Assembly: GCA_037783545.1 (NCBI GenBank)
Contig: JBBELK010000052.1
Location: 1,054,001-1,118,000 of the forward strand
DNA length: 64,000 bases
Direction of reading: 5' to 3'
From: Henricia sp. BOLD:AAB3569
Lineage: Eukaryota; Echinodermata; Asteroidea; Spinulosida; Echinasteridae
The notes beneath the pieces are model-generated. The model did not search any database, had not been told where the DNA came from, and worked only from the letters and a program-made list of their open reading frames with translations. Each line of letters opens with the position of its first letter. The stretch's first letter is position 1. This document shows, piece after piece, positions 8,399 through 62,236 of the stretch. A program made the position numbers and the translations under genes.

Positions 8399-9875
8399 GA
8401 ATGAAAGTTATAGATTTGCGTCCGGGCATTTTTGAAATGACATGAGGCTTTTTTTCATTATTCATTATTCATTATTTTCTCGTACTAGCTTCTTCAACGA
8501 TGTAATTGCAATATGTATGTAGTTATTAATGCTAGTGATGCGTAATACCATGTGTACTGCATGCTTATACATACCCCTAGTTCGTGGAGACGATAGCGGA
8601 ACGAACCTCTCATAGTTCTAGGACATATCTATTTTGCTTGTGAAGGAAACACCAGAAACTACTGAAAGAGTTTTTCATTGAAAACGTCATAAAACTTTAA
8701 TAAAACATGCTCCAAAGTCTACATCATTTTAGAGTCAAGATCAGAGAAAAAGTCCCGTTAACATGAATGATCAGGCTGTTCCATTTTGTTTGCGTACTAA
8801 AAAACAGCGTCCGTCCAAAATTCTCAAAATACCAGATGCGCCCGTTCAATAAATGTAGCGCCTGGACAAAATCGTCGAGCGCGCGCCCGAGCAACAGAAT
8901 CACGACGTACATGTACACATGCACGCGCACAAGCCACAGTTTCAATGCGCTATTGACCCCTTCGAACACGTGCGAATAGGCCATTTTGGGAGTCAAATAA
9001 TGCTGAGTCATTGTGGAAGCAATGTGCATGCGCGTTGTGTGTGTCTCTGGTGGGCGTAACGCGGTTTAGTTCACCAATGGGAGCCTCATCATGGGCTGCT
9101 TTCGAGCGCTCGTCCCTGGTGCTCCCAGGTGGTGGAAACGTTACGTCACACACATGCTTACACACGCTTTCGGGCGAGCACCATGGAGCACCTGGTGCCG
9201 CGCTCGAAAGCAGCCATGCATAGCGTGTTTACTCCCAAATTACGTCATTGGCACGAGCTCAATAGGGGCTGCTTTCGAGCGCTCGTCCCTGGTGCTCCCA
9301 GGTGGTGGAAACGTTACGTCACACACATGCTTACACACGCTTTCAGGCGAGACCATGGAGCACCATGGAGCACCTGGTGCCGCGCTCGAAAGCAGCCAGG
9401 GCTAGGGCTGCTTTCGAGCGCGGCACCAGGGGATCCCTAGTGTTCCCTGGTGCGCGTTCGAAAGGCACAAACTGCATGTGTGTGACGTAACGTTACCAGC
9501 GCCTGGGAGCTGGTGGGAGCACCAGGGACGAGCGCTCGAAAGCAGCCCAACAAGTCGATCTTTTTGTATAAATAGTGTGCAGCGACTGGTACCCAGAAGT
9601 CGGCTATTTCGTAACGGCATTTCGCATGCATTTTTCTCTGTGTCGCAGGGCATCCTGACTACATTTTTAGTCGATGAACGGGACCTTGTCTACTAGTAAA
9701 ATGCGTGAATATAACCTTTTACCATTGTTTGATGATTTGAAACTTGAAAATTCGTGATGCAGAGTCTTTTTTTGTAAAAATAATGAAAATTTTTGAAAAT
9801 AATGAAATTTTTCGGCGGTAGCTTTCAGAGCATGCGGGCGGTGGACGCAAATCTATCATTTTCATTCTCATGGCC
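8399..9875 (+). mobile_element. Harbinger-like element, copy 1 (5' end eroded), nested
   Basis: Near-identical to 61014-62236 except that the outer eight bases of the left end are missing and extra mini-palindromes are present at 9089-9221 and 9266-9398. The right end keeps CATTTTCATTCTCATGGCC. It sits inside the 8243-10118 element. Its frames share peptides with the other copy only because the DNA is duplicated, and no transposase domain is seen. Confidence 0.82.
9089..9398. repeat. Two extra 120-130-bp mini-palindromes (GGCTGCTTTCGAGCG ends)
   Basis: Each unit begins GGCTGCTTTCGAGCGCTCGT and ends GCGCTCGAAAGCAGCC, with GGTGGTGGAAACGTTACGTC inside. Units occupy about 9090-9219 and 9268-9397. 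Both are absent from the paralogous copy at 61014-62236, which retains near-empty sites. A third related unit at 9407-9547 is shared by both copies. Confidence 0.8.
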
Positions 9876-13197: not shown

Positions 13198-16100
13198 TGT
13201 CTAATGGAGCCAGTTACGGACTACAGCTCCCACAGTAGTGACAGTGGTGTTGGACAAGATTTGCTTGTAAGAACTGCCGCCTTGGACCAGACACGAGAGA
13301 ACAAAGGCATCGAGCTCCCTGTAAAACATGGCACACCATCTGGTATGCAGCGTGGAACCCTTCTTGAAAGATACCACCTCCACAACCACTCCAAGTCAAT
13401 AATTTGTCAAGACTGTGGCATATTCTTCACCTGTGATTCTTTTCTGAGTCACAGTCACGATAACCATGGCAGGAAGCGCCATCGTCCACCAGCTGATTCC
13501 CTAGAACTTGATATTTTGAATCCAGACACGAGACAGACGAGAGCTTGGGAAGAGTTCCTTGCAAAGATGGGACGCGTACCAAGGCACTTAAAGTCTAATA
13601 TTGATCCTGCTAACCCGCGTAATTCAACTGGCACAAGACAACTTTCTCCTGCTAGAACTGTTGAAACTCTCAATGATAAAAAAGTGAAAAGGGAGAGTAC
13701 GGACATATCAAATTTTGACAAAAATGTTCAGGAAACGGTGAATGCCTCTGAACGTCTGCTCAGGGAAACCTCTCAGTATCTTCATTCATCAGCCGAAAAA
13801 CTGAAGCACAGAAGGCAAAGATCCTTGAGAAATTACCAACTTCACCCTAAACCTCCTCCGTCTCGTGAGCCTGTGAATGACAGCTCTTTATCCTCGGGAT
13901 CTTCAGCAGATTACCAGCCAGTCATCAAAGATAAACTTTCAACCGGAGCACTCGCCAACAGGCCGAATCGCAAATTCCTCGAAAAGTACTTGGAGAAGAG
14001 CGGCGATAGCTTCCAACTTCTTACTGACTCTCTTTCATCTCTGAAACCATCAACTTTGAAATCCGATTCCTCGGTAACTAACTTGAGATCTGTACATGTC
14101 AGTGCTCCACATACACAACAAGAACTGTCGACATCAGAAGAGAAAGGAGAATGTGTGATCATGGACATACCTGCACCTTTGGAGGTACCGGTAGGTGGAG
14201 GAGGAGATGCACTTTTAGGCATTTTACAAGCAACATCAAGATCGACCAGTCCAGGAAAGTCAATGCAAGGAAAAAGCATCATACTGCAGGAGCCTTGTGA
14301 TCAAAATGGTGAGCAGTTGTGTAGTACATTGTGTATGTACATGTACAGGCAATTCCTCAAAACGAGCCTGGTGTTTGATTCTGAATAACCTTTGAAATAT
14401 CTACAAACAGGGCCGCAGTAAACTGGGTTGAGGACCCAAAAATTACAGTTTGGGTGAGGACTTAAAAATTACAGTTGAATCGAAACTTGGAAAATTTCTG
14501 ACAACAATTTGCCACCCGGACAAAAAAACTTGCCACCCGGATGAAAATATTCAAGTCGTCTCTCTAGAAACACTTAAAGGTCAAGTCTGTTTTGAACAGT
14601 GCCCTCACATGGCAAACGTTGGGTTGGTCACTGTTCTCCATGTGAGGGCAGTGTTCAGCGTGCCCCGAAAAATAGCGACTAGTGGAGAACCCCCCCTCCC
14701 CCGCTGCCGGCCTAACTGTTGAAAAGTGGTCACAGTACAGCACTACATATTTGTTTTGCAAGGCTGGTTCTATTAGTTCATGTACTTCATCATATGAATG
14801 AGGAAAATTAAATGCAAATTTGGCATTCCACCCCAAATTCTATGCTTTGAATAGGTGAAGAGTTGAGTTAGTTTCAACTTGCATGAATATTTGCTGCGAA
14901 ATTTATGAAGTATTCACTTTCTCATAAACGGACCTTCCGTTAAAAATTATCAAATGCACAACTTACATGTATATTCTGAAGTTTACAAACTTCTTTTTTC
15001 TGCAGATCCATTATTCATAATCCAGACAGCACAGGAATTACTCACGCTTGCAGCACATAGGATGCAGGAAAGACCACAGAACAATCAAGGTAAGGAATGT
15101 TGTGGTACAAATTGTTTGGTACCGATATTACAAAATCAATATTTAAAAGCAACCACTTTTCGACTTGCTGTGCAGTCACCAAGTGCATCTGCGCTTTTTG
15201 TTTTGAGCATTTCTAAGTCGGGCGCGTAGGCATGTAGAACACGGCAGCATCATTCAAATTTTTATCCCACGCGATATTGGCGTCAATGTAGACAATGGAT
15301 TGCCCACTGCAGTGCAGCTTCCATGTTAAATTTGCTTGTAGCGAAAACGTCAAACACTAAATTGTTTTCTGAAGTATTACTGCATCTATGTGGCTGAAAT
15401 TTCTACAAGGTAGTTTATCACGATTATTCTTCAGGGGCTCTCCAAATTTGTCACCATTTTCACAGTTCTACAGAGCGTAGTATTTTTCAAGACACGCACC
15501 CCCCACCCCCCTCAGCCCCCACCCCCCTTTCCCCCCACCCGAAATATTAGGAATTGTTTGTCACTACCATGAAATGTCAACATTTTACGTGTATGTATTT
15601 TTTTTTTTAATACACTTCTTTCCTAGCAACACCAAACAAATAAATACAAAAGTTTACCAATCATGCAATCTGTCTTGAATGTGTGGGCAAAGCTTAATTA
15701 TTATTATTATTATTTTTTTTGGAAGATGGCATTGATTGGCAGAAGAAATACGAAGCTGAGAAGGAACTGAGCAAGGAAAAAGACAGAAAAATCCAAGAAT
15801 TGGAGGGTGAGTTAATGGGGCTTTCAGAGGGCTGAAGTGACTTTTCACGTTGACCTATGGACATTGGAAGAATCACTTTCAGTCGATCGCAAAAACATGG
15901 CGGCCGCCATCAAATCAGTGTTGGATTCTCTACTTTAGCCATTTTACACATGTCAGAAATCCCATGACCACATTTAAGTCAAAATAAAACTTTGAAAAAC
16001 AAACAATGCACGTCGTTCTCGTCTCAAATGCTGTGCAATAATCAGTTTCTCCCAATGAATCTTCCAAACAGCAGAGCACTCGTCAAACCTGCACCATAGA

Positions 16101-20724: not shown

Positions 20725-21516
20725 TTAAAGGTACACACCGGCTTCGTTGGGCTCGAAATTGACCCATACCAGATTCTGAATGCCCTTCCGTAATAAACTG
20801 AACATATCCTGTAAAGAAACCACAGAATTTTGCCGTTTTTGAGCAATTTAAAAAATACAGAGGTCACGTGACTTTTTGGAACCAGATCCTGGTTCCGAAA
20901 AGTCACATGGTCTTGCGAGTTAGTTTTGTGTCCAGTCGCATGAAAGTTTCTTACTGCAGAACTTAACTGCACCAAATTTAACTCTGATTTGTCTACAATA
21001 TTTATAAGTAGTTGACAAAAGAAGACTATTTAATATACAGGTATGAAACAAAGTTGTATGAAAATTCGAACAGAAATTTTTGTTTCGAGTCCGGAGAATG
21101 GACTCGGCGAGCGCGTGCTAGTATAGCAAATATCCCGAGTGCACACATGGCGGGTTGGTTGGTGTACATGTACGTTCGTGAAGAAAAAACATGATGCTAA
21201 CTTCTCCAGAGAAAGCGAAATTAATAATCGGTCGTCCGGGCTGTCCAGTGAAATTGTGATCAGAAAATTGGAGATATCCCGAGTAGGAAAAGAGCGAATC
21301 GTTTGTGACAAAGTCGTGAGGCTCGCACGTAGTTGCAACGGCTGGTAAAGCGTATAACCCGTCTTTTGACCGTTTTTGTTAATTTTGCACTTCTTTAGTA
21401 AAATACGGGATATATTTTGACGATTTTTGTTTTTTTCACAACGACCATCAAAAAAGTATTGTCAATGCTGCTACATCACTAAATCATGTAAACAGTAGGC
21501 TGGTGTGTACCTTTAA
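20725..21516 (+). mobile_element. TTAA-bounded element, TTAAAGGTACACACC family, copy 1
   Basis: A 792-bp element with TTAA at both ends and inverted termini AAAGGTACACACCGGCTT and GGCTGGTGTGTACCTTT. It is colinear with 50728-51547, including GGAACCA-GATC-TGGTTCCGAAAAGTCAC hairpin words. The plus strand near 21220-21348 encodes an open stretch shared with the other copy ([20 protein letters not shown] and on to RSCNGW, stop). Confidence 0.83.
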
Positions 21517-29628: not shown

Positions 29629-31031
29629 CTACTTGGTGAGAAATCGCAGGGCAGCGAGTCCTCCCAGAACAGCTCCTGTAACCAGCAATGAATTGAACGT
29701 TGCCGTTTCCTTCCAATCTTTAGCTTTGAAGCTCTCATTGAAGTTATCCTGCAAGAAACAAATCAGAACAGTTCAAGGAAAATGAACCAGGAAATCAATT
29801 TCTGTCCCGGCCCAATAAGTCTACCGAATGCTACGTGGAGTTGAACCAAGAGTTGCGGGGTAATTCTGCAATTGTGCTAAATTTTATTGCGGGAAATTGC
29901 GGAGCTAAGAGAATTTAGGACAGGTTGCAGATGCATCGTCACAACTTTCATAAGACATACTTATGAAGTATTAAGTACCTACTCGCCTACCGGGGGTACC
30001 CACCGTTTAAAACTGTTTAAACAATTTTCAAATCATGCTGGTCGAATTCCCCTCCCGGTCGAATACGGTACATCGTATGAATTTCTCATTGTACAGCCAC
30101 GTCGTTTACACAAATCTTGATCTTATTAACCTTGATAAATAATTGATCAGCTCCAAACAGGAACATTTTATTTATTTATTTACCACATCCAACAGCGGAG
30201 AACCGCCAATTACAGGAATGGAAGCAAGTGTGGTCGAGTGCCTTGCTCAAGGGCACAGGTGCCACAACCCGTCGCGGCCCGGAATCGAACCTACATTCTA
30301 GTACTAGCACAGAAACTTAAGTTCGACGCACTAGACCGCTCGGCCATAACACCCCACAAAACATCACTCAGTACATGCACATCATGTAACAAAATGAACA
30401 AAGATTAACACGATTAATTAACATTTTGTTTATTTATTTGTTTATCATTATTAATAAATTGATCTTTATTTTATTTTTAACCTACCCAACCACCTTGCTT
30501 TATGATCCATGGCGTTAACCTTTCTGCAACATAATCTCCACAGACCTCCACAACTTCATCGATGTATTCGGAGTTGCCGTTTTCCTGACAATACTTTGCT
30601 AGTCGAGCGGCGAACACGTAAACCATGACAACTCGACCCCAATTTACCGCCCCTTCCTCGAACATGGCATTCAGGCTGATATTGAAAAGCTCTCTTCCGG
30701 CGCCATGTTTCTTTGGGTTGTACTGAAGATTGTTCACTAGTCCGTTTAAAGTGATGGCATATCTGTCTTCAACCTCACGACCTACCCTCCTCAGTGTCTC
30801 GGTGTATTTGCAAGGTGGCCGCCCGGCATTTGATTCCAGTTTGAAGTTGATAAAATCCTCACCGAGCCTTTTGCAGATTATTTTACATTCAGCTTCCTTG
30901 CTGGACGAGAGAGAATTACCGTTCAGTTCTGTTGGGCTGGGTGGCGAATTCTTGGAGTCACTGCTGGTATAAAACAGCTTCGAAATACTGTTTTTCTGCG
31001 GAGAAACACCGCCAAGGATACTTTCAGACAT
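29629..31031 (-). CDS. Bcl-2 family protein, Mcl-1-like (two exons, complete)
   Basis: Exons 31031-30486 (182 codons) and 29748-29629 (39 codons plus stop) join in phase 0 with donor GTAGGT and acceptor TTGCAG, giving 221 residues. A Ser-rich N-terminus is followed by a BH4-like helix (CKRLGEDFINFKLE), BH3 ETLRRVGREVEDRY at about residues 79-92, BH1 EGAVNWGRVVMVYVFAARLA, and BH2 WIIKQGGW|DNF split exactly by the intron. A hydrophobic C-terminal anchor follows (SLLVTGAVLGGLAALRFLTK). NWGR, GGW and the ETLRRVG stretch point to Mcl-1 rather than Bax or Bak. Such proteins sit on the outer mitochondrial membrane and bind BH3 helices to restrain Bax/Bak. The usual BH3 Asp after Gly is Arg here. The intron holds an antisense SINE. 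Subfamily assignment is inference. Confidence 0.92.
30162..30354 (-). mobile_element. Class II tRNA-derived SINE (-) in the Mcl-1-like intron
   Basis: On the minus strand a tRNA-like head (GGCCGAGCGGTCTAGTGCGT, B box GGTTCGATTCCGG), then the body CTTGAGCAAGGCACTCGACC and an (AAAT)n tail. Same family as 18954-19316. Confidence 0.82.
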
Positions 31032-31576
31032 GGCTGTTTATCTTGGAAGCTATTTGCTGCGGTTTAAATTCGGTAAAAGGAAAAATATGTGTTTTTTAAC
31101 GCAATTTTCTCCACCCGCCTGCGTCTATCGCCTCAAATTTGTACAAACGACGACCCCAAGTGCGCGATATCAGCTACAGAAAATGCACCTCAACAGCGCG
31201 TTCTTTCGTCTCGGGATTACTCGTTGAAGTCACGAAATGTACCGAAGCATAATCGGCCATTCGAGAAATACCACGAAAGGTTATTTTTAGAATGACGCGC
31301 GACGACGTCGCTGGCGCTTTACGTCACATGACTTCCAAGAATTGTTTTTAGGTTATTCCATTATATCAGTAGGGTTGACGTTGTGACAGGGCAGTACCCT
31401 TTTATATTGAAATATAAAAGGTATAAGATTGTACGTTTCTGTTACATTTATTTTCAAAACTAGCATGAAAAGTCTGCTCATAAATTAATGTTTGTTGTCA
31501 TCTGGCAAACCTAATATTTTTTTATCTCCTCAATTTTCAAAGTGGAAGGACTGTCCGATTAGTGCGAAACCCGTCG

Positions 31577-32262
31577 TCAGTCTGGTCAACTCGACCGTTT
31601 ACCAACTCGACTCGAACCAACTCGACCGTCGTATAGTATTACCAACTCGACCGTTGTATACCAACTCGACCGTTGTGCGTTCAACCGGAGAAGTCAACTC
31701 GACCGTTGTACCAACTCGACCGTTCTCCAACTTGACCGGTTGCGTTCAACGGGAAAGGTTCGTGGCGGTATGCGAAAGCGAAGGCGAATCATGAGCAAAA
31801 CTGACATAAACATTTCCCTGCGAAAATTTTGCAAATTCGTAGCGCGAAAATGTCGCAGTCAACCGGCTTTGCACGGGTGACCGGCGCCGGCCCAGCCCGT
31901 GATTCAGCCCATCGTCCGCCCGGCACACGCAGTATATGATATGATGTGCATGACGCAAGCCACATACCCGATCAACTGAGAACGAATATTTGAGACACCC
32001 CGCCAAGACCAGGAAAACGCATATGGATTTTTATGGGTTTTTTAAACGTGGTATACATTTGACAAAGCTGAAATTTCTTCGGATGAGTTTGTTGATGTCT
32101 TTCTTTTGATTTATAATGGTTTTATTCGCAGAATCGTTCAAAAACAGATCATCCTCAGGCCTTTAAGTCAACGGACGAGTTGGTACACCGGTCGAGTTGG
32201 TAGAACGGTCGAGTTGGTAATAACGTTCGAGTCGAGTTGGCAAACGGGGCGGTCGAGATTAT
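31577..32262. repeat. Inverted arrays of an ACTCGACCG minisatellite
   Basis: 31577-31745 has seven or more ACCAACTCGACCGTTGT-like units. 32166-32262 has the reverse complement (GTCGAGTTGGTA units). Between them lies a TTAA-element fragment (31916-32166). This arrangement of opposed arrays resembles foldback transposons whose arms are built of short tandem units. Confidence 0.68.
31916..32166. mobile_element. TTAAAGGCCC family, 3' half only
   Basis: From CACACGCAGTATATGATATG to CAGGCCTTTAA, it matches the right half of 2619-3148. The left half is missing. Confidence 0.75.
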
Positions 32263-32529
32263 GTTTGCGATAACGCAATCGTAATCTACGCAGCGTGTTG
32301 TGTCATGAATTGTTGAATGCACGCACATGCTATTGCCACGCATCAGCGGACGGAGAGAAGACGGGAATCCGGTGAGAAACGCCACCAGAAGTTACATGTA
32401 CGCGTATTTGTTCACCATCACCAATCTACCTCAACACTGGGCCAACATCATCCGTACAGCGGGCATAAATCCATGTAATCCATGTAAATACCGTAGGCCT
32501 ACACGTACGTTTGCCACCCTATTCATCGA

Positions 32530-34640
32530 ATACTAGACAACTCGTACCCGAGACAACTCGTACCCGGGACAACTCGAACCCGGGACAACTCGAACCCGAG
32601 ACGACTCGTACCCCTTTTGTTATCATTTTGGTAACATTTTTTAATGTCCTGCGAAACGTCCCCAAAAGTTCCAGCAAACATCGCGGCAAAAGTCAGTAAA
32701 GTCGAAACAGATATCACAGCGAAAGTTTCAACAAAGTCCTGGCAAATATCCCGGCAAAATTGCGCAAAAGTGCCAGGAAATGTTGTGGCAAAAATTGCGC
32801 CTGAAATCGGGTGAAATGTTTGTAAAACTATTGCCGGCAAAAGTGACACCAAAATTCGCGCCAAAAGTCCGAAAGTCTTGGCAAACGTCCCGGCAAATTC
32901 CCGATAAAAAGAAAAAGGTCCTACAAACTTCACAGTAAAAATGTCGTTCCAAGTAGGGGAAAAGTGACGGAAAAAAAGTCTCTACAAAAACAAGTTAGTG
33001 AAATGGTTTCATAAAGTGGCGCGCACGTACATGATAGAAAGGGTTCGAGTTGTCCCGGGCACGAGTCATGGGTACAAGTTGACCAGGCCCCAGGGTGTCT
33101 TTTTTTGGGTTCGAGTTGTCCCATGTACGAGTTGTCCTGTTTCCTATTCATCTGCCATGGTATTGTTCAATAAATATGATAAAGTGGCGAGGTCACGCTG
33201 GACCTACGTACCTACCTGCCCCCTTCCAACTCGCCCCCTGACTGACTCGCCCCTTACCAAGACCAAGTCCGAAGTCGCCCCCTGACTGCTGACCGAGTCG
33301 CCCCTTAGCGTACCCGCCCCCTTGACAGTACGGGCGCATGGACATTTTATCGGATGTCTTACTATTGTTGGACATCATACCATGGCATAGTCGGACAAAA
33401 TTGTCCTAACATAGTGCGATTGTCATACAATTGTCAGACTTGATTCTTTCATGGGCCATTTCGGGGGAAACAGTCCAGTATCACATATTTACAATAGCGC
33501 CCTCATTTCCAGCAGCTCAAAACACCTTAGGTTTAACTTGCGGCGGGTACCTGCAAGTTGCAAACAATTATATTACAATAAAGAAATGCATCTCGCTATT
33601 TAAATACCTGTATAAATTGTGTCAATTGATGTATTACTATCAATTCATATTTTATTTTATTTTACATTACCAGAAATATTGGCTGCTATTTAAAGCATAC
33701 TGGGGAATCCGTTCCATTACATTCGTCAGCATGCATCCCTGTTATTAATTTTTTTTAAAGCGGAGTAAATTAAGATCGTCATTTGAAATTTTGGTAACAA
33801 TGGGACAGTCATAAGGAACAGAACCCAATACAATTTCTGGAAAGTATAGAAATCGTTTCTTTTCGGTATAACATGACTGAATTGATTAAATTACATCAAA
33901 ATGACTCGGGCGTGTGTTGGCTCAACACAACAGCCGGTTACTCCACAGATTTGCGTGGATTTCCTCGGGGTATAGTATCGTCGCTTCACAGAGTGGAAAT
34001 TCCCTGAGATCTCAAGATGTCCGGATCTGGGGTTGTAAACATTTCCAGATTCACGTTGCCTTTGTTTTCCAGTACGTAACGTTTGTTACTATGGGGGGAA
34101 AATGCAGCCGACTTCGCGTGTTCGCGTTCAGGGCACTTTTTGAAATCGGGCCAGATGGTCAGGGGGCAACTCGGTCAGGAGGCGACTAGGCCAGGGGCGA
34201 CTAGGCCAGGGGGCGACTTGACCTACAATCAAAATAATCGACCTGGCAACTATGCCGATATACGTTAGGATTTTGGAAACGGGACAACTCGTACCCGGGA
34301 TAACTCGAACCCAAAAAAAGACAACCGGGTCAACTCGTACCCAGGACAACTTGTACCCGGGACAACTCGTACCCTTTCCCATCATGTACGTTCGCGCCAC
34401 TTTATGAAACCGTTCTGGCACTATTGCCCCTACTTTGAGCGACACTTTTACCGTGAAGGAATTACCAGGATTTTTGCTGGGACTTTTGGCGTGACTTTTG
34501 TCGGCACTTTTACCGGCACTTTTACAGACTTTTGACCCTACTTCAGCCGCAATTTCTGTCGCAACTTTTCGACTTTTGCCAGGACTTTGTTGGAAGTTAT
34601 GCCATAATTTCTATCGCAACTTGGTGACTTTACACCTAAT
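32530..34640. repeat. Large foldback with arms of degenerate short repeats
   Basis: Left arm (about 32530-33320) reads GACAACTCGTACCCGGGACA, then many GGCAAAAGT/GGCAAACGTCC units, TTTCATAAAGTGGCGCGCAC, GGGTTCGAGTTGTCCCGGGC and CGCCCCCTGACTG. Right arm (about 34150-34640) has the inverses in reverse order: GTCAGGGGGCAACTCGGTCA, GGGACAACTCGTACCCGGGA, GCGCCACTTTATGAAACC, then ACTTTTGGCG/CTTTTACCGGCA units. The loop at 33330-34140 is ordinary AT-rich DNA without a recognised gene. Confidence 0.7.
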
Positions 34641-34691
34641 TTTGGAATGACTTGACTGTACCTTTGAAGTGTTTTAGAGGGGAAACTGGAT

Positions 34692-35183
34692 TTATTTTTT
34701 GTCAGGCCGGCAAATTTTTGTCCGGGTGCTAATGGTACTTGTGATGATTTTGTTTGGGCGGCACGCCCGGACAAAACCAGTAGTAGAGAACGCTGCATAG
34801 AGGTCGAACACCTTTTGCTTCTTCAACAACTTCGCAGTGCAGCCTTGGTCTTGTGCATTCATGCCTGTCGTCGACTCAGATGTTACAACTACAAGCATTC
34901 TCTTAATGGATTTTTGCTTCTGCAGCGAAACCAACTGCTGGACATCCCCTTGAGATGGATGTACCTCCAAGTATGGGCAATACCTGGCAATTTCTGACGT
35001 TTTGGGGATTTCTGGTGTCTTTAGAACTTGAGGTGGCTGGTTAGCACGTATGGGTGACTTGTTTCCATCGTCAAGGCATTTAGTGTGAGCTCTCCAGATG
35101 TTTCTGGCCAAATTGTTTTTCCTGCTGTAGATGTTGCAGAATGGGCATGGGAATCGGTCACAGGGTTTGTGTTGCTCAGTCAC
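34692..35183 (-). CDS. 163-codon ORF with a degenerate zinc finger, probably retroelement-derived
   Basis: An open frame on the minus strand starts MTEQHKPCDRFPCPFCNIYS. The CPFC pair followed by KNNLARNIWRAH resembles a C2H2 finger whose first His has become Asn. The rest is Lys/Ser-rich. It lies immediately 3' of a decayed gypsy integrase on the same strand, so it may be an extra 3' ORF of that element. A 3' portion shares words with 48838-48990 (ACTTTACACCTAATTTTGGA), so this end is repetitive. Real expression is doubtful. Confidence 0.4.
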   Translation of the reverse strand: MTEQHKPCDRFPCPFCNIYSRKNNLARNIWRAHTKCLDDGNKSPIRANQPPQVLKTPEIPKTSEIARYCPYLEVHPSQGDVQQLVSLQKQKSIKRMLVVVTSESTTGMNAQDQGCTAKLLKKQKVFDLYAAFSTTGFVRACRPNKIITSTISTRTKICRPDKK

Positions 35184-35659
35184 ACATAATGCCGACTTTG
35201 CCCCAAAGGACTTGTCACACCTGATGCTCTCCGCTCGACCGTCATGTCATCGGGGGGACCGGTTTGGTGTGAATGATCGGCGGGGAGAGTCGTGGCATTT
35301 CCGGCTGTGGCTTCTTTTCGGCATCAGCCGGAGAAACAGGAAATAAGTTTTTAGAAACGCGAAATACGCTTTTATGTTACTGCAGGGTCCGACTTGGTCC
35401 ACTCTCTATATCGCGGAGGCAGCCAGTGCTTTCGGCTGTTCTCTCCTTTGGCCGTCACCGAGTCTCTTGATGTAAGACTTGATGGATCTCGTACGTATGT
35501 CATCATTACTCCCATGCATATTATTTTCCTGTACGTCGCTGGTTATCGCATCTGCCATAGTGCCATGCGTACCGTCACTCCCACCTTACCCATTAGGGTT
35601 CAGATCCGCTGCAGGCACTGTCCATCCTCCTCAGGTTTTGCAGGCTGTCTACTTCTCTT

Positions 35660-36660
35660 TTCTTTCCCCTCCACCATGACTTGTCAACTCAACCTTCAAA
35701 AGGCTAGAGGCGATTTGTGTAAACAACTCTGGACTTGTGGCGTTGACTTTTTTGTATTCGAACAATCACGTCCCTCAGAATGTCTGTTACAAGGTAGGGC
35801 GCTTCCCACCTTGGCTGGAGCTTGGGAAACAACTCAACATGCCTCTGCTCGACTACTGATGTCACAGCAGTCCTCGGTTCCAAACCGTTTGGCTTATTTG
35901 ATGTTTGGTAGTTCCGTTTTTGATATTTTGCAGCTTTTTGCAGATGGACTCTGGCATGCTCATGGCTTCATGCATCCTCTCTTGCAGTTGCAAGGCATAG
36001 TCGCCGATCTTCCGGGTTTGCTGATCTTCCGACTTGACTGGCAGTTCCACTTCTTGGCCAAATGTATGATAGTTTAGGGTTTGTCTAGACATACTGTGCA
36101 TGGTGTGTCATTGTCATCATCACCAACTGCAGGTGGAGCTCCTATTTCAATTGATTCTCGGCGACAAGCTCAGCATATGTTTGAACATGCGGTTAAAGCG
36201 TTCAACTTGCCCATCGCTTTGAGGATGGTGGGGGAGAAGGGTTATCATCCGTTTTTTAAATCAATACCAAGAACTTCTCTTGAAAAAGGTTGCTTTGGAA
36301 CTGCGGGCCAGCCTTGGTCACTATTTAACTGCCGTGGTGTGCCATGTCGGGAAACAAACTCTCTAACAAGAACATCAACAATTGTCTGTGCCGTAATATG
36401 CTTGACAGGAAAAGTCTCGGTCCACTAAGTGAAGTAGTCCGTTATGGCGACAATGTACCGGTTCCTCCTGCCCTCTGTATGCCTCTCTATTGGAACCCCT
36501 GGGATCTCTTGAGTGGCGCTCTATCTCCATGGGGAGGATGTTTGTGTTTGGCACGTTGAAGGCATCTATTACACCATAGCACCACGCAGTTCCTCATGTT
36601 CTCCCCCAAAAAAATCTTGATTTTACCTTGGCGTAGTTACATGTATTTCAAGGTGACTGG
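35660..36660 (-). pseudogene. Decayed Ty3/gypsy retrotransposon integrase
   Basis: On the minus strand, several frames carry short matches to gypsy-type integrase in the right order: the zinc-finger tail and linker (KHKHPPHGDRAPLKRS, near 36545), catalytic core around ITDYFT and FVSRHGTPRQLNSDQGW, the late core motif HPQSDGQVERFNR near 36200, and the C-terminal region (LQPRWEAPYLVTDI) near 35810. Frames change several times and stops interrupt the core, so it is not functional. No LTRs, reverse transcriptase or RNase H could be found in the window. Confidence 0.8.
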
Positions 36661-36868
36661 CTGTGGGGTCGTCATGAAGTTGTTTGAAAACCTTGTCTCA
36701 AATCCACCTAGAAGCCATTGGGAATGATGTGGGTCATCCTCTTCCCAACACTTGCATAACACATTATTGTGATTTTTTTGTATTTATTTTTAAAAAAAAA
36801 TTGCAAAAAAACAAGACATTGGGTTTGTACTTTGTAGGGAGACCTGAAGGAGTGCATGTATACCACTG

Positions 36869-36965
36869 TGCCTCATAGGTCAGCTGGTAGAGCTTCTGCC
36901 TAGAGAGTAAGAGGCCGTGGGTTCAAATCCTCATGAGGCTCATGTGATTTTTCTCTCATCCGGTC
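36869..36965 (+). mobile_element. tRNA-like SINE (+), tail TTTTTCTCTCATCC
   Basis: Acceptor strands GCCTCA and TGAGGC pair, the D arm reads GTCAGCTGGTAGAGC, and the B box is GGGTTCAAATCC. The anticodon stem is mispaired, so it is not a working tRNA. The tail GATTTTTCTCTCATCC is shared with 23941, 53456 and 54056. Confidence 0.7.
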
Positions 36966-37044
36966 CCATGTTTGGTTAAAACTTTCCCCTAGGCATATTT
37001 GCAAATTTCAAACTGAACTTCTCCATTTTGTTAACAATTTACAG

Positions 37045-37365
37045 AATTCACAGGACATTGGAACAAAAATGGTTCACAGTGTAACCAACACTCAGAGATG
37101 GCCGTCTTCACAGCAGCAAGGGATCCATGGCAACAGGCCAGTGATGGCCAATCAAGTATTGTGGGATCAGGAATCGCTCATCAATGCCAGTCGAGGTGCA
37201 CAGTGTTTACCCTTTGTTAACATGCCAGCAAGGGATGTGGGTATGGCCCTCAGGCTCCTTGCAGACAGTTGGTTGTATGAGAGACAAATAGGCTTTCAGA
37301 TGCGAACAATTGCTGATGAGGTGTATGCACGACATCAAAGACGGAGGAATAACATCTTGACATAG
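37045..37365 (+). CDS. Candidate BH3-only apoptosis protein (Bmf/Bim-like), coding exon
   Basis: A 98-residue frame starts at ATG 37069 (context AAAAATGG) and stops at 37363-37365. A TTTACAG acceptor ends at 37044 and the eight codons after it are open in frame, so an upstream exon, coding or not, is likely but not found. Near the C-terminus the segment RQIGFQMRTIADEVYARHQR fits a BH3 helix: hydrophobics at the four standard positions (I, M, I, V) and the invariant small residue-Asp pair (AD). It aligns with Bmf (QI-L--IAD-F) and Bim (LRRIGDEF-A). BH3-only proteins bind the groove of Mcl-1/Bcl-2 guardians. There is no membrane anchor. The divergent Mcl-1-like gene is 6 kb away. The motif is short, so homology is inferred and not proven. 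Confidence 0.62.
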   Translation, partial: NSQDIGTKMVHSVTNTQRWPSSQQQGIHGNRPVMANQVLWDQESLINASRGAQCLPFVNMPARDVGMALRLLADSWLYERQIGFQMRTIADEVYARHQRRRNNILT

Positions 37366-46600: not shown

Positions 46601-49600
46601 CCAAGTCAAGTCAAGTCAAGTTGCCTTCGAGTCCCAAGTCAAGTCAAACTGCCTTTCAGTCCCAAGTCAAGTCAAGCCATTTTTCACCAATGCTTGAGTG
46701 AAGTCAGGCATGTTAATTGGTCAAGTCTGATCAAGTCAAGTAGTCACAACAGTAACTTTGTTCAAGCGAATTTCAAAATGACTCTTAATGCTGGAACTTG
46801 CATTCGTGTAGGGTATATTTATGGTGTTCTGACCACGTGACTCGGGTCCAAGTCATTAAAGTCAAGTCAATTAAGGTTCGTGTCTCAAGTCAAGTCAAGT
46901 CAGTGAAAATCGGGACTCGAGTCCTGAATCTCAAGTCCGAGTCATTACAGCACTGTAAAAAAGTCCAACAGGAAAATTATTTTTGACTCTTTCATAGCTT
47001 ACCTCCGGAAACTTCTTCTGTTTGATGTACTCGGTGATAGCTGGGTCCCAGGATGAAGCATAACCCTCATTGATGCTGTAAATATTTCCCCGTGGCTTCA
47101 CTTTCATCAGGCGGTCCGTCAGAACAAACTCCCCAATGGCCTGCAAAAGTTTGAATCTCACTGATGCAATGTTCTATACTGGTCAAAATCTTGTCCGGGC
47201 GTGCTGAGCAGCACACGTATTTCTTTTCCGTAGGTGGGTGAAGCAAATTGAGAATTTTCTCTGCTTATGATTGGTTGAGATGGACATGAATATTTTTTTC
47301 TCTATATAGCGCCCTCATGGAGTTGTTAAATTAAGGGGAAAAAAAAAGAAAATTGATGGGGTTGTCCAGTTGCTTGGTAGTCTAGTGGTGAAGACATGGG
47401 ACTATCAATCAAGAGTTGCGAGTTCAAATCTGCCGAGTCACATTTTTTTCTCTCAATAATAATAGACCGATCCAGTAAGCTCCGCCCATTTTGGAATTGA
47501 CCAATCACAGCCTCAGGTTGAGGTAACCAAAAAGTGGATCTCCATTTTGGTTACCCGAGTCCTCAATATTTTGTGCACAGAGCTTCGGAGAAATGCAGCA
47601 TGAGTGACGCAAAAACACCATAAACATCATTTTTATCAGCGCAGAGGACCCTAGCCGGTTTAAAACGGATTGTATAAGACTATCCTAACCTACTTTTAAT
47701 CCCTTCATCAATGTGTTTTTGTGTAAACTTACCAAAATTAGCTTGTCGTTTTGCTATGTTGTGCATTCACTGCATTCTAGATGTGTGTCGAGATGTTTTT
47801 GTTCGATCGCGCGCGTTACGCGTATTGCAGGCGTGTTGTACGTGCGTGCACGACCGGATACCTAAGTGCACATTTTGCTTTCGAGCGTGCAGTTTCTGTG
47901 TACGTGTTTCAATACGCACTGACCAGGGCGCGGACGCTGACGCACGGCGCAGCCTCGCGACTCTACTGCACACGTGCCTCACATGTGTGGCATGTTGCTA
48001 GGCAATTTCTAAATGGGCAGAGCTTACTGGATCGGTCTATTGAGGAAAGAGTGAGGGTTATGTTATGGTAAAGTTATCGACAAAACTAAGTAGGCCTATG
48101 CAACGTATGGAGTTACACCAATCGAAAGCAACTGCTTCACCCACCTACGGAAAAAAAAAATGTGCGAGCAGCACCCTCACGCGGCGAACACTGACCAACC
48201 CAGTGAATCCCCGTTTGCCGTGTGAGGGCGCTGTTCAAAATGGATGCATGTAAGAGCAAGTTGAGGTGCTAACCATTAGTCAATTTGCGATTTTTTTCGC
48301 ACATGCGTAGTTTGTTTTTCACCCGAACGCGTCGTCAGGCATATCTAGTCAAACATGGCCAAAATCGTCTGCACTGCCCCCGTCAACGGTTTACAAAAAA
48401 TACTTACAAGCAACCTTTTTCCTCATGTTTGCCCTCGTATGTTCTACTAAAGAAATTTCAACTCGTTAAAGCTACCATAGAATTGGTTATTAATTCTATC
48501 TTTAATTCTGATATAAATTAACACTTATTTAGCGAATGCTTTTTTTTTTCAATCGCGTTTACAATTCCGCCATCTTGAAAAGTGATGTGTTACAACTGAC
48601 TGGAGATGAACCTAGCCCGGGGCTTGGTTCCTCTAGTCAGACTATCTAGTCAAACCACGCAGCGTTTGGGTGACATCTACATGTAGATGGACTATGGTTA
48701 GTCTAGTTAACTATGGTCACCCGCCCGAACTTGCTCTAATCTGTCATGGTTGTGATCGGCCACAGATTGGGTCGCCGATGCGATAGATATGCAGTAAAAG
48801 TGGACTATAATGATGCCAGCAGCTAGAGAATCATGTTTTGCGACTTTACACCTAATTTTGGAATGACTTGGTTATACTTCGGAAGAGCTTTTATTTTTGT
48901 CTGGGCAGCCAAATTTTTTTGTACGGGTGGAAAATTTATGTCAAGGCACTAATGATGATTTTGTCAGGGTGGCGCACCCGAAAAAAAAAAAACAAACAAA
49001 CAGCTAGAAGAGAACCCTGCACTGATGGATATCCTTGAAATTGATGTTTTTACTCTTTTGAAATTTATCGCGGCAAGGTACCAGCTACCGTTAGCTGCGT
49101 CCCAGCTACCGTGGATGTGTACAGGGAAGGAGTCCTTGGAATGGTCTAGAATTTAAAGGCCCAGTGTATCATTTGCAATGATCCCAAAAAGTAATCGACA
49201 AGATTACAGGGGAAAAGTTCTGAAAGTAAAGATTGAATTAATAGCAACTATCCATTGAAAGGTTTTCGCTCAAAATGATATAATTTTACCAGAAAATAAT
49301 CCGTAAAGATGAAATTATTTAGATCGCTTTCAAACGATTTACTTATTTTTGGTTCGCATCTACGCGGTCCAAAATGCATGGGCGCTGTGTACTCCGCGTG
49401 CGTGTTCCAACGCGATGCATTTTATATGGATCGCGCGCACACGCAGTATATGATGTTCGCCACAGAGTGCATGACGCAAGCCACATAGTACTCGATCAAC
49501 TGGGAACGAATATTTAAAGACCAGGAAAACGCATATATATTTTCATGGTTTTTTTAAACGTGGTACATTTGACAAAGCTGAAATTTCTCCGGATGAGTTT

Positions 49601-52600
49601 GTTGATGTCTTTCTTTTGATTTATAATGGTTTTATTCGCAGAATCGCTCAAAAACAGATCAGCTTTTAAGAGCAGCTATACTCACAGGGTCCAGCATGAA
49701 ACCATTAACACCACAACCTGTGGAGAGTACCACCATAGTAGCACTGCCATACAATGCATAGCCAGCTGCCACAAGTTTGTCTCCAGGCACCAACACGTCT
49801 TTAAGGGTTACTGGTCCAACAGAATCCTGGGGGTAATAAGGACTATAAGTTGAACTGAAAGATCAGGAAAAACCGTGGAGTCTTTCCACGGTAAAGGGGG
49901 CATTTTGGCAACACAGACCATATTTTCCAGAAAATACCTTTGTCTGGTCTCAAAATAAAAGAAATAAGTTTCAGTTGTTTAGAAGAGATAACTTAGGCCC
50001 AAAAAGGGTTACAAATAGTGTGACAACATGCCTTTCTAAAAACGCTTCACCCGGTACCTAATGTTGTATTCTTTATAATGCACTCATTATTTTCTACAGT
50101 TAATTGTAGTAAATTATCTTTGTATTGTGTGAATTCAACATTGAAATAAATTGAATTGAATTGAAGTTATCTCTTCAGAACAACTGAAACTTATTTCTTT
50201 TATTTTGAGACCAGACAAAGGTAGCGGTATTTCCTCGAAAATATGGTCTGGGTTGCCAAAATGTCCCTTTACTGTGGAAAGACCCAACTATTGGTGGGTT
50301 TAATGAACTTTAAATCGCAGCCCGTACGATGAATTGCATGAAGCTTAATACAAATATTTTCTACCTAAACATCGAGATACATACACATGTAGGTAGGTGG
50401 CGCCATTGGCAGCCGACAGCCAGAGACACCGGGGAATCCCCTAACTCTTCACGAAAGAGTGCTCTGGGATCTTTTAAGTGCGTTACACAACACACTGGAC
50501 CATTGGCTTTACATCCCTTCCAAAGGATGGAGCAAGTGTGTTTAACACTATGAACAACTAACAATGGAAATTGGGCACAGTCCATATTATTAACAATGAT
50601 GTGTGCCCAATTTCCATTGTTAGTTGCTCATAGTGTAAGTGTTGCGAGTCATCAGTGACCCAAAACCACTCGGCCTCGTTACCCCACGAATGTGGGTCCA
50701 TGCATGAAACTCTTTTCTTGTGTGCTGTTAAAGGGCCAGGCACACACCCGCTTTGTTGGGCTATTTTGGGCTCGAAATAGACCCATACATTATTCTGAAG
50801 CGCTTTCGAGAGTAAAAAGACGCCGTCAAATTTGGCCGTTTTTGAGCACTTTTGAAAAATTCAACGTCACATGACTTTTCGGAACCAAATTATGGTTCCG
50901 AAAAGTCACGTGGTCTTGTGAGTTAGTTGTTTTTCCAGCCGTATAAAGGTTTGTTACTGCAGAACTGCACCAAATTCAACTCTGATTTTCCCCCAATATT
51001 TATAATTAATTGACAAAAGAGAGACTATTTATACAGGTATGAAACAAAGTTAAACATAAGTGTGAAAATTCGAACATAATTGTTTGTTTCGAGAGTCCGG
51101 AGAACGGGAGCGAGCGCGTGCTACGGCAGGCTACCGTGGAGTGTAGGATATTTGCCCCGCGCAGCACGGCAAATTTCCCGAGTGCACACACGGGTTGGTT
51201 GCTCCGGTGTACGTTCGTGAATAAAAAACATGCTAACTTCTCCAGAGAAAACGGAAATTCCTAATCGGTCGTCCGGGCTGTCCAGTGAAATCGTGATCAG
51301 AAAATTGGAGATATCCCGAGTAGGAGAAGAGCGAATCGTTTGTGATAAAGTCGTTAAGCTCGCGCGTAGTTGCAACGGCTGGTAAAGCGTATAACCCGTC
51401 TTTTGGCCGTTTTTGTTAATTTTGCACTTCTTTAGTAAATTAAGGGATATTTTAATGATTTTATTTTCACAACGACCATCAAAAAAGTATTGTCAATGCT
51501 GCTACATCACTAAATCATGTGAACAGTAGGCCGGTGTGTACCTTTAAAGAAAGGCTGTGCACATTTGTTTTTGTTTTTTTCCCTAGTATTTATTTATTTT
51601 TTTAAAATTAATTTATTTTGCCATGCATGCCTAGACTAGGCTATTTATGTTTACAGCTAGTTTGGTATTTTTTTAGTTTATGCCACAACTCGAATTTAAG
51701 GAAAATAAGTATTGGAATTGATAGCTTGGATGATTTTAAAATACCTTTTCCATTTGGAAATGTTGCCTTTCCATGAAAATTCTGTGTTTCTGTCACGTCC
51801 GCCGTGCATTGCCACGTCGGGTAAGGGCAAAAACAACCTTACTTAACGTTCGCCTCCATACAAAAGTGTGTGAAACTGCTGCCGGCCGAGGCAGTATGTG
51901 AAGCGCGCGAAGAAAGAGGGCGTGCGCGTGATGATCCGTTTGGTTTCTGGCCGGCCGCTTTGCGTGCAATCATATGCAATATTCTTTCCGTGATTTTTCT
52001 CTAAAACTAAGCCTTTGCGACGGAAATGCATGTAAGTATTCCATTTATAAAATCGTCCAAGCTATCGATTCCAATAATTATTTTCCTTAAATTCAAGTTG
52101 TGGCATAAACAAAAAAAATACAGCTAGTTTTAATGAATGTTGAATGTTTTACCTTTTTCCAGATTGCAAAGATAGAGCCAATGGACACTAAACAATCGAT
52201 GTTGGAAGAGCCATCCAAGGGGTCAAAAGCCACAATGTATTTGCCAGCTTTACCCGGATCTACCAAAATTGTGTCCTCGTTTTCCTCCGAAACAAGAGCA
52301 CAGGTGGTGAACGATGACTTGAGGGCATTGATGAAAAGATCGTTAGAAAGCACATCCAATTTCTTCTGCTCGTCCCCCGTCACGTTGGTGGAGCCAGCAA
52401 TGCCAAAACTGGGAATAAATAAAATGATTTGACCTTTTAATGATGCCGTTTCGACCAATCATCTCGCACGTTGTATCAGCTCACGACATGTTCGTAACTG
52501 AAAATGTTTGTAACTGAAGGAAGTGTTACTATTTCGCTAAAAGCTAAACGTAGTTCATCTGAATAAAGATAGGCCTACGTATCTATTGAAAAAATGTCCT

Positions 52601-61013: not shown

Positions 61014-62236
61014 GGCCATGAGAATGAAAGTTATAGATTTGCGTCCGGGCATTTTTGAAATGACATGAGGCTTTTTTTCATTATTCATTATTCATTATTT
61101 TCTCGTACTAGCTTCTTCAACGATGTAATTGCAATATGTATGTAGTTATTAATGCTAGTGATGCGTAATACCATGTGTACTGCATGCTTATACATACCCC
61201 TAGTTCGTGGAGACGATAGCGGAACGAACCTCTCATAGTTCTAGGACATATCTATTTTGCTTGTGAAGGAAACACCAGAAATTACTGAAAGAGTTTTTCA
61301 TTGAAAACGTCATAAAACTTTAATAAAACATGCTCCAAAGTCTACATCATTTTAGAGTCAAGATCAGAGAAAAAGTCACGTTAACATGAATGATCAGGCT
61401 GTTCCATTTTGTTTGCGTACTAAAAAAACAGCGTCCGTCAAAAATTCTCAAAATACCAGATGCACCCGTTCAATAAATGTAGCGCCTGGACAAAATCGTC
61501 GAGCGCGCGCCCGAGCAACAGAATCACGACGTACATGTACACATGCACGCGCACAAGCCACAGTTTCAATGCGCTATTGACCCCTTTCGAACACGTGCGA
61601 ATATGCCATTTTGGGAGTCAAATAATGCTGAGTCATTGTGGAAGCAATGTGCATGCGCGTTGTGTGTGTCTCTGGTGGGCGTAACGCGGTTTAGTTCACC
61701 AATGGGAGCCTCATCATAGCGTGTTTACTCCCAAATTACGTCATTGGCACGAGCTCAATAGGGCTAGGGCTGCTTTCGAGCGCGGCACCAGGGGATCCCT
61801 AGTGTTCCCTGGTGCGCGTTCGAAAGGCACAAACTGCATGTGTGTGACGTAACGTTACCAGCGCCTGGGAGCTGGTGGGAGCACCAGGGACGAGCGCTCG
61901 AAAGCAGCCCAACAAGTCGATCTTTTTGTATAAATAGTGTGCAGCGACTGGTACCCAGAAGTCGGCTATTTCGTAACGGCATTTCGCATGCATTTTTCTC
62001 TGTGTCGCAGGGCATCCTGACTACATTTTTAGTCGATGAACGGGACCTTGTCTACTAGTAAAATGCGTGAATATAACCTTTTACCATTGTTTAATGATTT
62101 GAAACTTGAAAATTCGTGATGCAGAGTCTTTTTTGTAAAAATAATGAAAATGTTTGAAAATAATGAAATTTTTCGGCGGTAGCTTTCAGAGCATGCGGGC
62201 GGTGGACGCAAATCTATCATTTTCATTCTCATGGCC
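61014..62236 (+). mobile_element. Harbinger-like element, copy 2 (intact ends, TAA TSD)
   Basis: Starts GGCCATGAGAATGAAA and, after a few bases, ATAGATTTGCGTCC. Ends with the inverse through CATTCTCATGGCC. TAA lies at 61011-61013 and 62237-62239. 1,223 bp, no transposase domain. It is near-identical to 8399-9875 but lacks two mini-palindromes present there. Confidence 0.9.
61771..61911. repeat. GGCTGCTTTCGAGCG mini-palindrome shared by both Harbinger-like copies
   Basis: GGCTGCTTTCGAGCG start and CGCTCGAAAGCAGCC end, about 140 bp apart. It corresponds to 9407-9547. Confidence 0.8.

Follow-up and report, generated by a model that had tools for sequence, protein, structure and literature searches.

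Within a 64,000-nucleotide stretch of contig JBBELK010000052.1 of Henricia sp. BOLD:AAB3569 (positions 1,054,001 to 1,118,000 of the forward strand; hereafter the window), we found a plus-strand open frame (37069-37365) whose chance of being a real BH3-only gene with a PUMA/BIM-like BH3 we judge from its sequence to be about even. It faces a minus-strand gene (31031-29629), which was shown by its domain and structure matches and its translation to be a pro-survival-type Bcl-2-fold gene nearest Mcl-1, with a predicted tail anchor. The initial annotation had described an Mcl-1-like gene and a BH3-only candidate as a divergent pair about 6 kb apart, and the two were indeed head to head, with 6.0 kb between 31031 and 37045. 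BH3-only genes outside vertebrates are hard to recognise, owing to the shortness of the motif (PMC7022251).

The plus-strand frame is open from 36937 to a TAG at 37363-37365 (142 aa). The candidate exon within it (37045-37365) is preceded by a possible splice acceptor, CTTCTCCATTTTGTTAACAATTTACAG, which ends at 37044 with its AG at 37043-37044, and the ATG at 37069 lies 24 nt further in the context AAAAATGG, which is counted as favourable. Translation from this ATG gives a proposed complete coding sequence of 98 aa (37069-37365), and on our reading the whole protein probably lies in this one exon. As had been annotated for 37045-37365, the frame terminates in a BH3-like helix with IAD: it ends in ERQIGFQMRTIADEVYARHQRRR, the BH3-like segment IGFQMRTIADEVYARHQR (37288-37341, +) occupies residues 74-91 of the 98-aa frame, and IAD at residues 81-83 provides the BH3 Asp with a small residue before it. 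No hydrophobic C-terminal tail was found in the 98-aa frame, its top 19-mer (0.88) lying before the BH3. Among Pfam matches at E <= 10, only a sub-cut-off match to PUMA was listed for the plus-strand frame, with no Bcl-2 fold and no other domain. If the start is at 37069, the length falls within the 54-198 aa spanned by human BH3-only proteins (PMC7022251), and this size, the BH3 in one exon and the lack of any other listed Pfam domain fit what is described for BH3-only proteins (PMC7022251, PMC8998228). The candidate exon has a single match in the 741-Mb genome, and blastn against 317 kb of local sequence, made up of partly overlapping loci, gave no repeat match over 37045-37365; on these two grounds the idea that the exon derives from a repeat or transposon was dropped.

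When the 142-aa frame was compared with the PDB, only three chains were matched at E <= 10, all of them PUMA BH3 peptides (0.22, 0.33 and 0.84). With a 47-aa query cut round the motif, five PUMA peptides led the list from E 0.024, with an unrelated enzyme next, represented by two chains (0.45 and 0.65). As a yardstick, the BH3 30-mer of human BIM hit the same PUMA peptide with an E of 0.036; the likeness between two accepted BH3s is thus about equal to that between the candidate and PUMA. A BH3 position-specific scoring matrix (PSSM) built from 11 BH3 peptides gave the segment 17.95, the top score of the window, followed by 12.36 for the own BH3 of the Mcl-1-like gene; the top score in 60 kb of flanks was 11.97. 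The 11 known BH3s, each scored in leave-one-out fashion, ranged from 13.14 to 30.33 (median 17.22), and the candidate exceeds six of them; BH3 regions picked from five further genes of this genome with a Bcl-2 fold scored 10.6-23.7. The PDB comparison, the matrix and a sub-cut-off Pfam match to PUMA (E 0.0053) thus all point to a BH3. With PUMA peptides at the head of the PDB list, a score within the range of real BH3s and a single genomic copy, the standing of the exon as a BH3-only candidate was upheld.

Over the core of the segment, 8 of 18 residues are identical to the BH3 of PUMA (BBC3), which leads both the PDB and the Pfam resemblance, and 7 of 18 to that of BIM (BCL2L11), with which the candidate also shares equal h1-h4 spacing and the DE and RR positions. 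Unlike PUMA, it has Met for Leu at position 3a, a Pfam score below the cut-off and no hydrophobic tail at the C terminus; unlike BIM, it has no C-terminal anchor, and no dynein-binding motif was seen in it by eye. A second, upstream BH3 in tandem was also considered; the motif VGMALRLLADSWLYERQI fits a loose pattern but scored -0.9 with the matrix and was dropped. A scan of prokaryote contigs returned 27 pattern matches and no relatives among them. The PUMA model run against the genome gave no match at E <= 10 and one first-look candidate, and this search was set aside as uninformative because the candidate exon itself was missed too.

Several properties of the frame weigh against its being a BH3-only gene. 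Its Pfam PUMA match (E 0.0053) reached 17.5 bits, below the cut-off of 26.4, and with PUMA left out of the matrix the candidate dropped to 15.88 and exceeded only 2 of the 11 known BH3s. The conserved BH3 Leu (3a), five residues before the Asp, is Met in the candidate. Met was allowed at 3a when candidates were chosen in PMC4072508, though it is not among the exceptions named there for tight binders (Tyr, Phe and Ile), and weaker binders have further residues at this position (PMC4072508). The hydrophobic moment of the 18-mer was 0.317, vs 0.593 for BIM and 0.518 for PUMA, and amphipathicity in the plus-strand frame is highest in 18-mers that precede the BH3. Neither AATAAA nor ATTAAA occurs within 900 bases past the stop, the first ATTAAA being at +907 and the first AATAAA at +1023. 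The Met at 3a and the weakly amphipathic helix would also suit the rival view that the Mcl-1-like gene is an ordinary one and that the open frame near it is non-coding and resembles a BH3 by accident, an explanation to which we give an appreciable, though less than even, probability.

The frequency of such peptides was estimated by simulation with a second-order Markov model of the window, in which a score of 17.9 was reached in 85 of 8325 64-kb sequences (about 1%). This rate favours chance, as does the length of the frame, which is not rare (10 of the 89 frames in the window's open-frame list exceed 142 aa). Among composition shuffles of the exon protein, the candidate score was reached in 24 of 200,000. 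Windows of 18 codons lay inside frames of at least 142 codons in 1863 of 52,982 cases (3.5%, with the known exons and the candidate frame included), and the joint chance of motif and long frame, taken as independent, was thus 0.0102 x 0.035, or about 3.6e-4 per window. This low value argues against an accidental peptide; so do the PDB matches, which bring up a single type of BH3 peptide instead of arbitrary chains, and the layout of the frame, which stops soon past the motif and has its ATG just after a possible acceptor. At the simulated rate, chance would produce about 118 matching motifs in 741 Mb, and about 4 would sit in frames of at least 142 codons, which counts against a real gene. With that many chance motifs genome-wide, the motif alone does not settle BH3-only identity, and the true BH3-only genes, perhaps a handful in all, are roughly balanced by the 4 or so chance cases; this balance is the basis of the judgement given at the outset.

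Codon usage was assessed in two tests. In the first, with 1206 training codons, the candidate scored a mildly favourable 0.029, and some of the null frames matched real domains (methyltransferase, L023:5931-6515; FBPase, 46937-47173). The second, on which we rely, was trained on 4523 codons of independent kinase exons with the frame chosen by motif (of 30 loci, 20 remained once near-identical copies and those lacking a stop-free frame had been removed), and the domain-matching frames of the first null were excluded from its null of 252 frames. Here the candidate could not be told from non-coding frames: it scored -0.004, a value matched or exceeded by 30 of the 252 null frames on the full score and by 72 of the 252 on the synonymous score, and one antisense frame of the same stretch was about equal (-0.008). 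Eight of nine known or probable non-training exons outscored it (0.110-0.441), the ninth, 13207-14200, being at -0.036. A score within the null and under nearly all of these exons is a further point for a chance peptide. Just upstream of 37045 the in-frame codon score was -0.242, vs -0.021 within, and this lower upstream value weakly favours the proposed exon boundary.

BH3-only candidates from echinoderms are already in print, and the 'S. japonicus' among their sources is taken here to be the sea cucumber. They come from A. planci, S. purpuratus and 'S. japonicus' and measure 118, 350 and 373 aa, those of A. planci and S. purpuratus being long; they resemble the present candidate in being echinoderm and in having the BH3 on a single exon (PMC8998228). 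The length of the A. planci and S. purpuratus proteins lends some plausibility to the idea that the frame closes a long protein of the 350-373-aa type as its final exon, or is an exon of a larger unrelated gene with a BH3-like helix; the possible acceptor at 37044 permits upstream coding exons. We nevertheless regard a larger gene as unlikely, considering that the ATG lies inside the exon, that no further Pfam domain was listed for the frame, that the upstream 6 kb are in good part repeat-like, and that the next Pfam-matching gene found downstream, FBPase, has the opposite orientation (not every frame was scanned).

The identity of the minus-strand neighbour was much clearer. Its exon 1 (30486-31031, 182 codons) carries a Pfam Bcl-2 match (PF00452) over residues 80-182 with an E of 2.9e-25 (89.1 bits vs a cut-off of 31.4), and translates into a BH3-like LRRVGREVE, a BH1 with NWGR and a BH2 up to GGW. 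Directly after GGW the exon ends at a GT donor, and a GT...AG intron of phase 0 (29749-30485), whose acceptor AG ends at 29749, separates it from exon 2 (29629-29748), which supplies the end of BH2 and a hydrophobic C-terminal anchor, SLLVTGAVLGGLAALRFLTK, before the stop at 29631-29629. The computed phase-0 join leads into DNFNESFKAKDWKETATFNSLLVTGAVLGGLAALRFLTK and then the stop, so that the boundary reads GGW|DNFNES and the two-exon product has 221 aa; its C-terminal 19-residue hydrophobic stretch has a mean hydropathy of 1.66. The boundary after GGW is the conserved position given for pro-survival genes in PMC8998228. Within the intron, a dispersed repeat of tRNA-derived look was observed at 30162-30357, for which the local sequence gave up to 8 overlapping matches.

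Exon 1 alone had Mcl-1 as its top PDB match (E 3.9e-13), and addition of exon 2 improved it to 3.3e-16 for the spliced protein, with the extension GWDNFNESF aligned to GWDGFVEFF of Mcl-1. Among the best 60 of 207 PDB matches of the spliced protein, Mcl-1 chains were at the top with 62.8 bits, in accord with the name first given to the gene, and Bcl-xL followed about 10 bits lower at 53.0 (from E 3.3e-13); with Bcl-xL so close behind in this ranking, the likeness to Mcl-1 does not settle orthology. The starfish protein shares with Mcl-1 (6qfm, 5jsb and 1wsx) the Bcl-2 fold, the BH3-, BH1- and BH2-like segments, the C-terminal anchor and, after BH2, GGWD where Mcl-1 has RGWD. It differs in that the usual Asp of its own BH3 is replaced by Arg (VGREVE within LRRVGREVE) and in that, with 221 aa in all, it is without the long N-terminal region that vertebrate Mcl-1 has. 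Of the segments annotated at first, those resembling BH3, BH1 and BH2 and the anchor were recovered; the BH4-like one drew no support from a model, Pfam having listed no BH4 family at E <= 10 in the search with exon 1, where the HMMER filters discard most weak matches, and a by-eye reading places segment EAECKIICKRLGEDFINFKLE at the expected BH4 position. By its sequence features, this is an ordinary pro-survival-type gene.

In the 741-Mb genome, 17 stretches matched the Bcl-2 family. Several of them had equal or near-equal scores on different contigs (C637/C683, C351/C998, C99/C361 and C406/C355) and look like haplotype copies left uncollapsed; the window's own region had no second copy. With such pairs taken once, we count about nine Bcl-2-fold loci, one of them with a stop inside the match, and one gene was labelled as putatively Bak-like from its BH3 alone (VGKQLAKIGDQINSQYQC, matrix score 23.7). 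For a sea urchin, as many as eight Bcl-2-family genes are given (PMC8998228).

The annotated description of the intervening 6.0 kb as repeats held in part. Nested inverted-repeat elements were found at 31695-34622 by a repeat search of the window (arms 33090-33144/34275-34329 at 89% and 31695-31749/32162-32216 at 75%), and repeats with other copies in the local sequence at 31923-32167 and 36858-36961, the latter overlapped by up to 5 matches. Shortly before the candidate exon, ARAGORN identified a tRNA-Ser-like sequence (36867-36943, +) lying in a dispersed, SINE-like repeat.

We also considered that the two genes form a functional guardian-antagonist pair kept together by selection and sharing a regulatory region. 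Their head-to-head orientation across a 6-kb gap is compatible with this, and with about nine Bcl-2-fold loci in 741 Mb a chance neighbour is seldom expected. Against it, many repeats lie in the gap, no shared element was identified, and no perfect full p53 site occurs in the window; moreover, the finding was chosen for closeness, and closeness is thus not independent evidence. Such a pair seems improbable, and the fuller notion of a life/death switch, in which a pro-survival gene and its BH3-only antagonist would be kept as co-regulated divergent neighbours, is more doubtful still. On the further idea of the initial annotation, that the two may once have lain nearer to each other with a common promoter region, only their orientation and distance bear. 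Among the literature results listed on linkage and shared promoters, no title concerned a Bcl-2/BH3-only gene pair. Unless synteny should show otherwise, we take the linkage to be most probably incidental. The adjacency is the sole unusual feature of the locus, and with echinoderm BH3-only candidates already published, only the linkage would be new.

If the plus-strand frame is a real BH3-only gene, 37069-37365 would encode a small (98 aa), anchorless protein with its BH3 near the C terminus. Pro-survival proteins, the neighbour's among them, would receive the BH3 helix in their hydrophobic groove, with Ile, Met, Ile and Val of the helix filling the four groove pockets. In solved complexes, the Arg of NWGR binds the BH3 Asp; NWGR is present in BH1 of the Mcl-1-like protein, and the Asp of the candidate IAD may pair with this groove Arg. 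Occupation of the groove would then free effectors of the Bax/Bak type.

Other features of the window and genome were observed in passing. On the minus strand, FBPase exons were recognised at 52093-52458 (N-terminal domain, E 7e-38) and 46937-47173 (C-terminal match, E 0.0019, below the cut-off), and about 6 kb past the right end of the window lies a methyltransferase exon (L023:5931-6515, -; Methyltransf_31, E 9.7e-24). A 396-aa open frame at 13198-14388 (+) had a c-SKI SMAD-binding match just under the cut-off (E 3.6e-5). The pair of overlapping open frames at 9402-9696 recurs with identical translation at 61764-62058, probably as a recent repeat, and the related frames at 21030-21461 (-) and 51121-51492 (-), reading QYFFDGRCE..., probably belong to a dispersed repeat. 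Elsewhere in the assembly, contig C955 holds three COX1 copies 16,221 bases apart, which is the size of the mitochondrial contig C2104; this concatemer is probably an assembly artefact. In mitochondrial COX1, AAA at a conserved Asn, AGA at Ser and ATA at Ile correspond to the echinoderm code. Two long mitochondrial frames on the minus strand, 362 and 340 aa in length and interpreted as ND2 and ND1, run opposite to COX1, which we take to be the starfish arrangement; code and gene order together make a starfish source most likely.

The role of mitochondrial cytochrome c release in echinoderms has been questioned (PMC8998228, PMC7022251). At present the locus is best described as an ordinary Mcl-1-like gene with a good BH3-only candidate nearby, and if the linkage of the two is conserved the arrangement would be an unusual one. 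If the candidate is real, a starfish PUMA/BIM-like gene beside a pro-survival gene would provide a simple test of whether echinoderm cells are killed by a BH3 in the groove.

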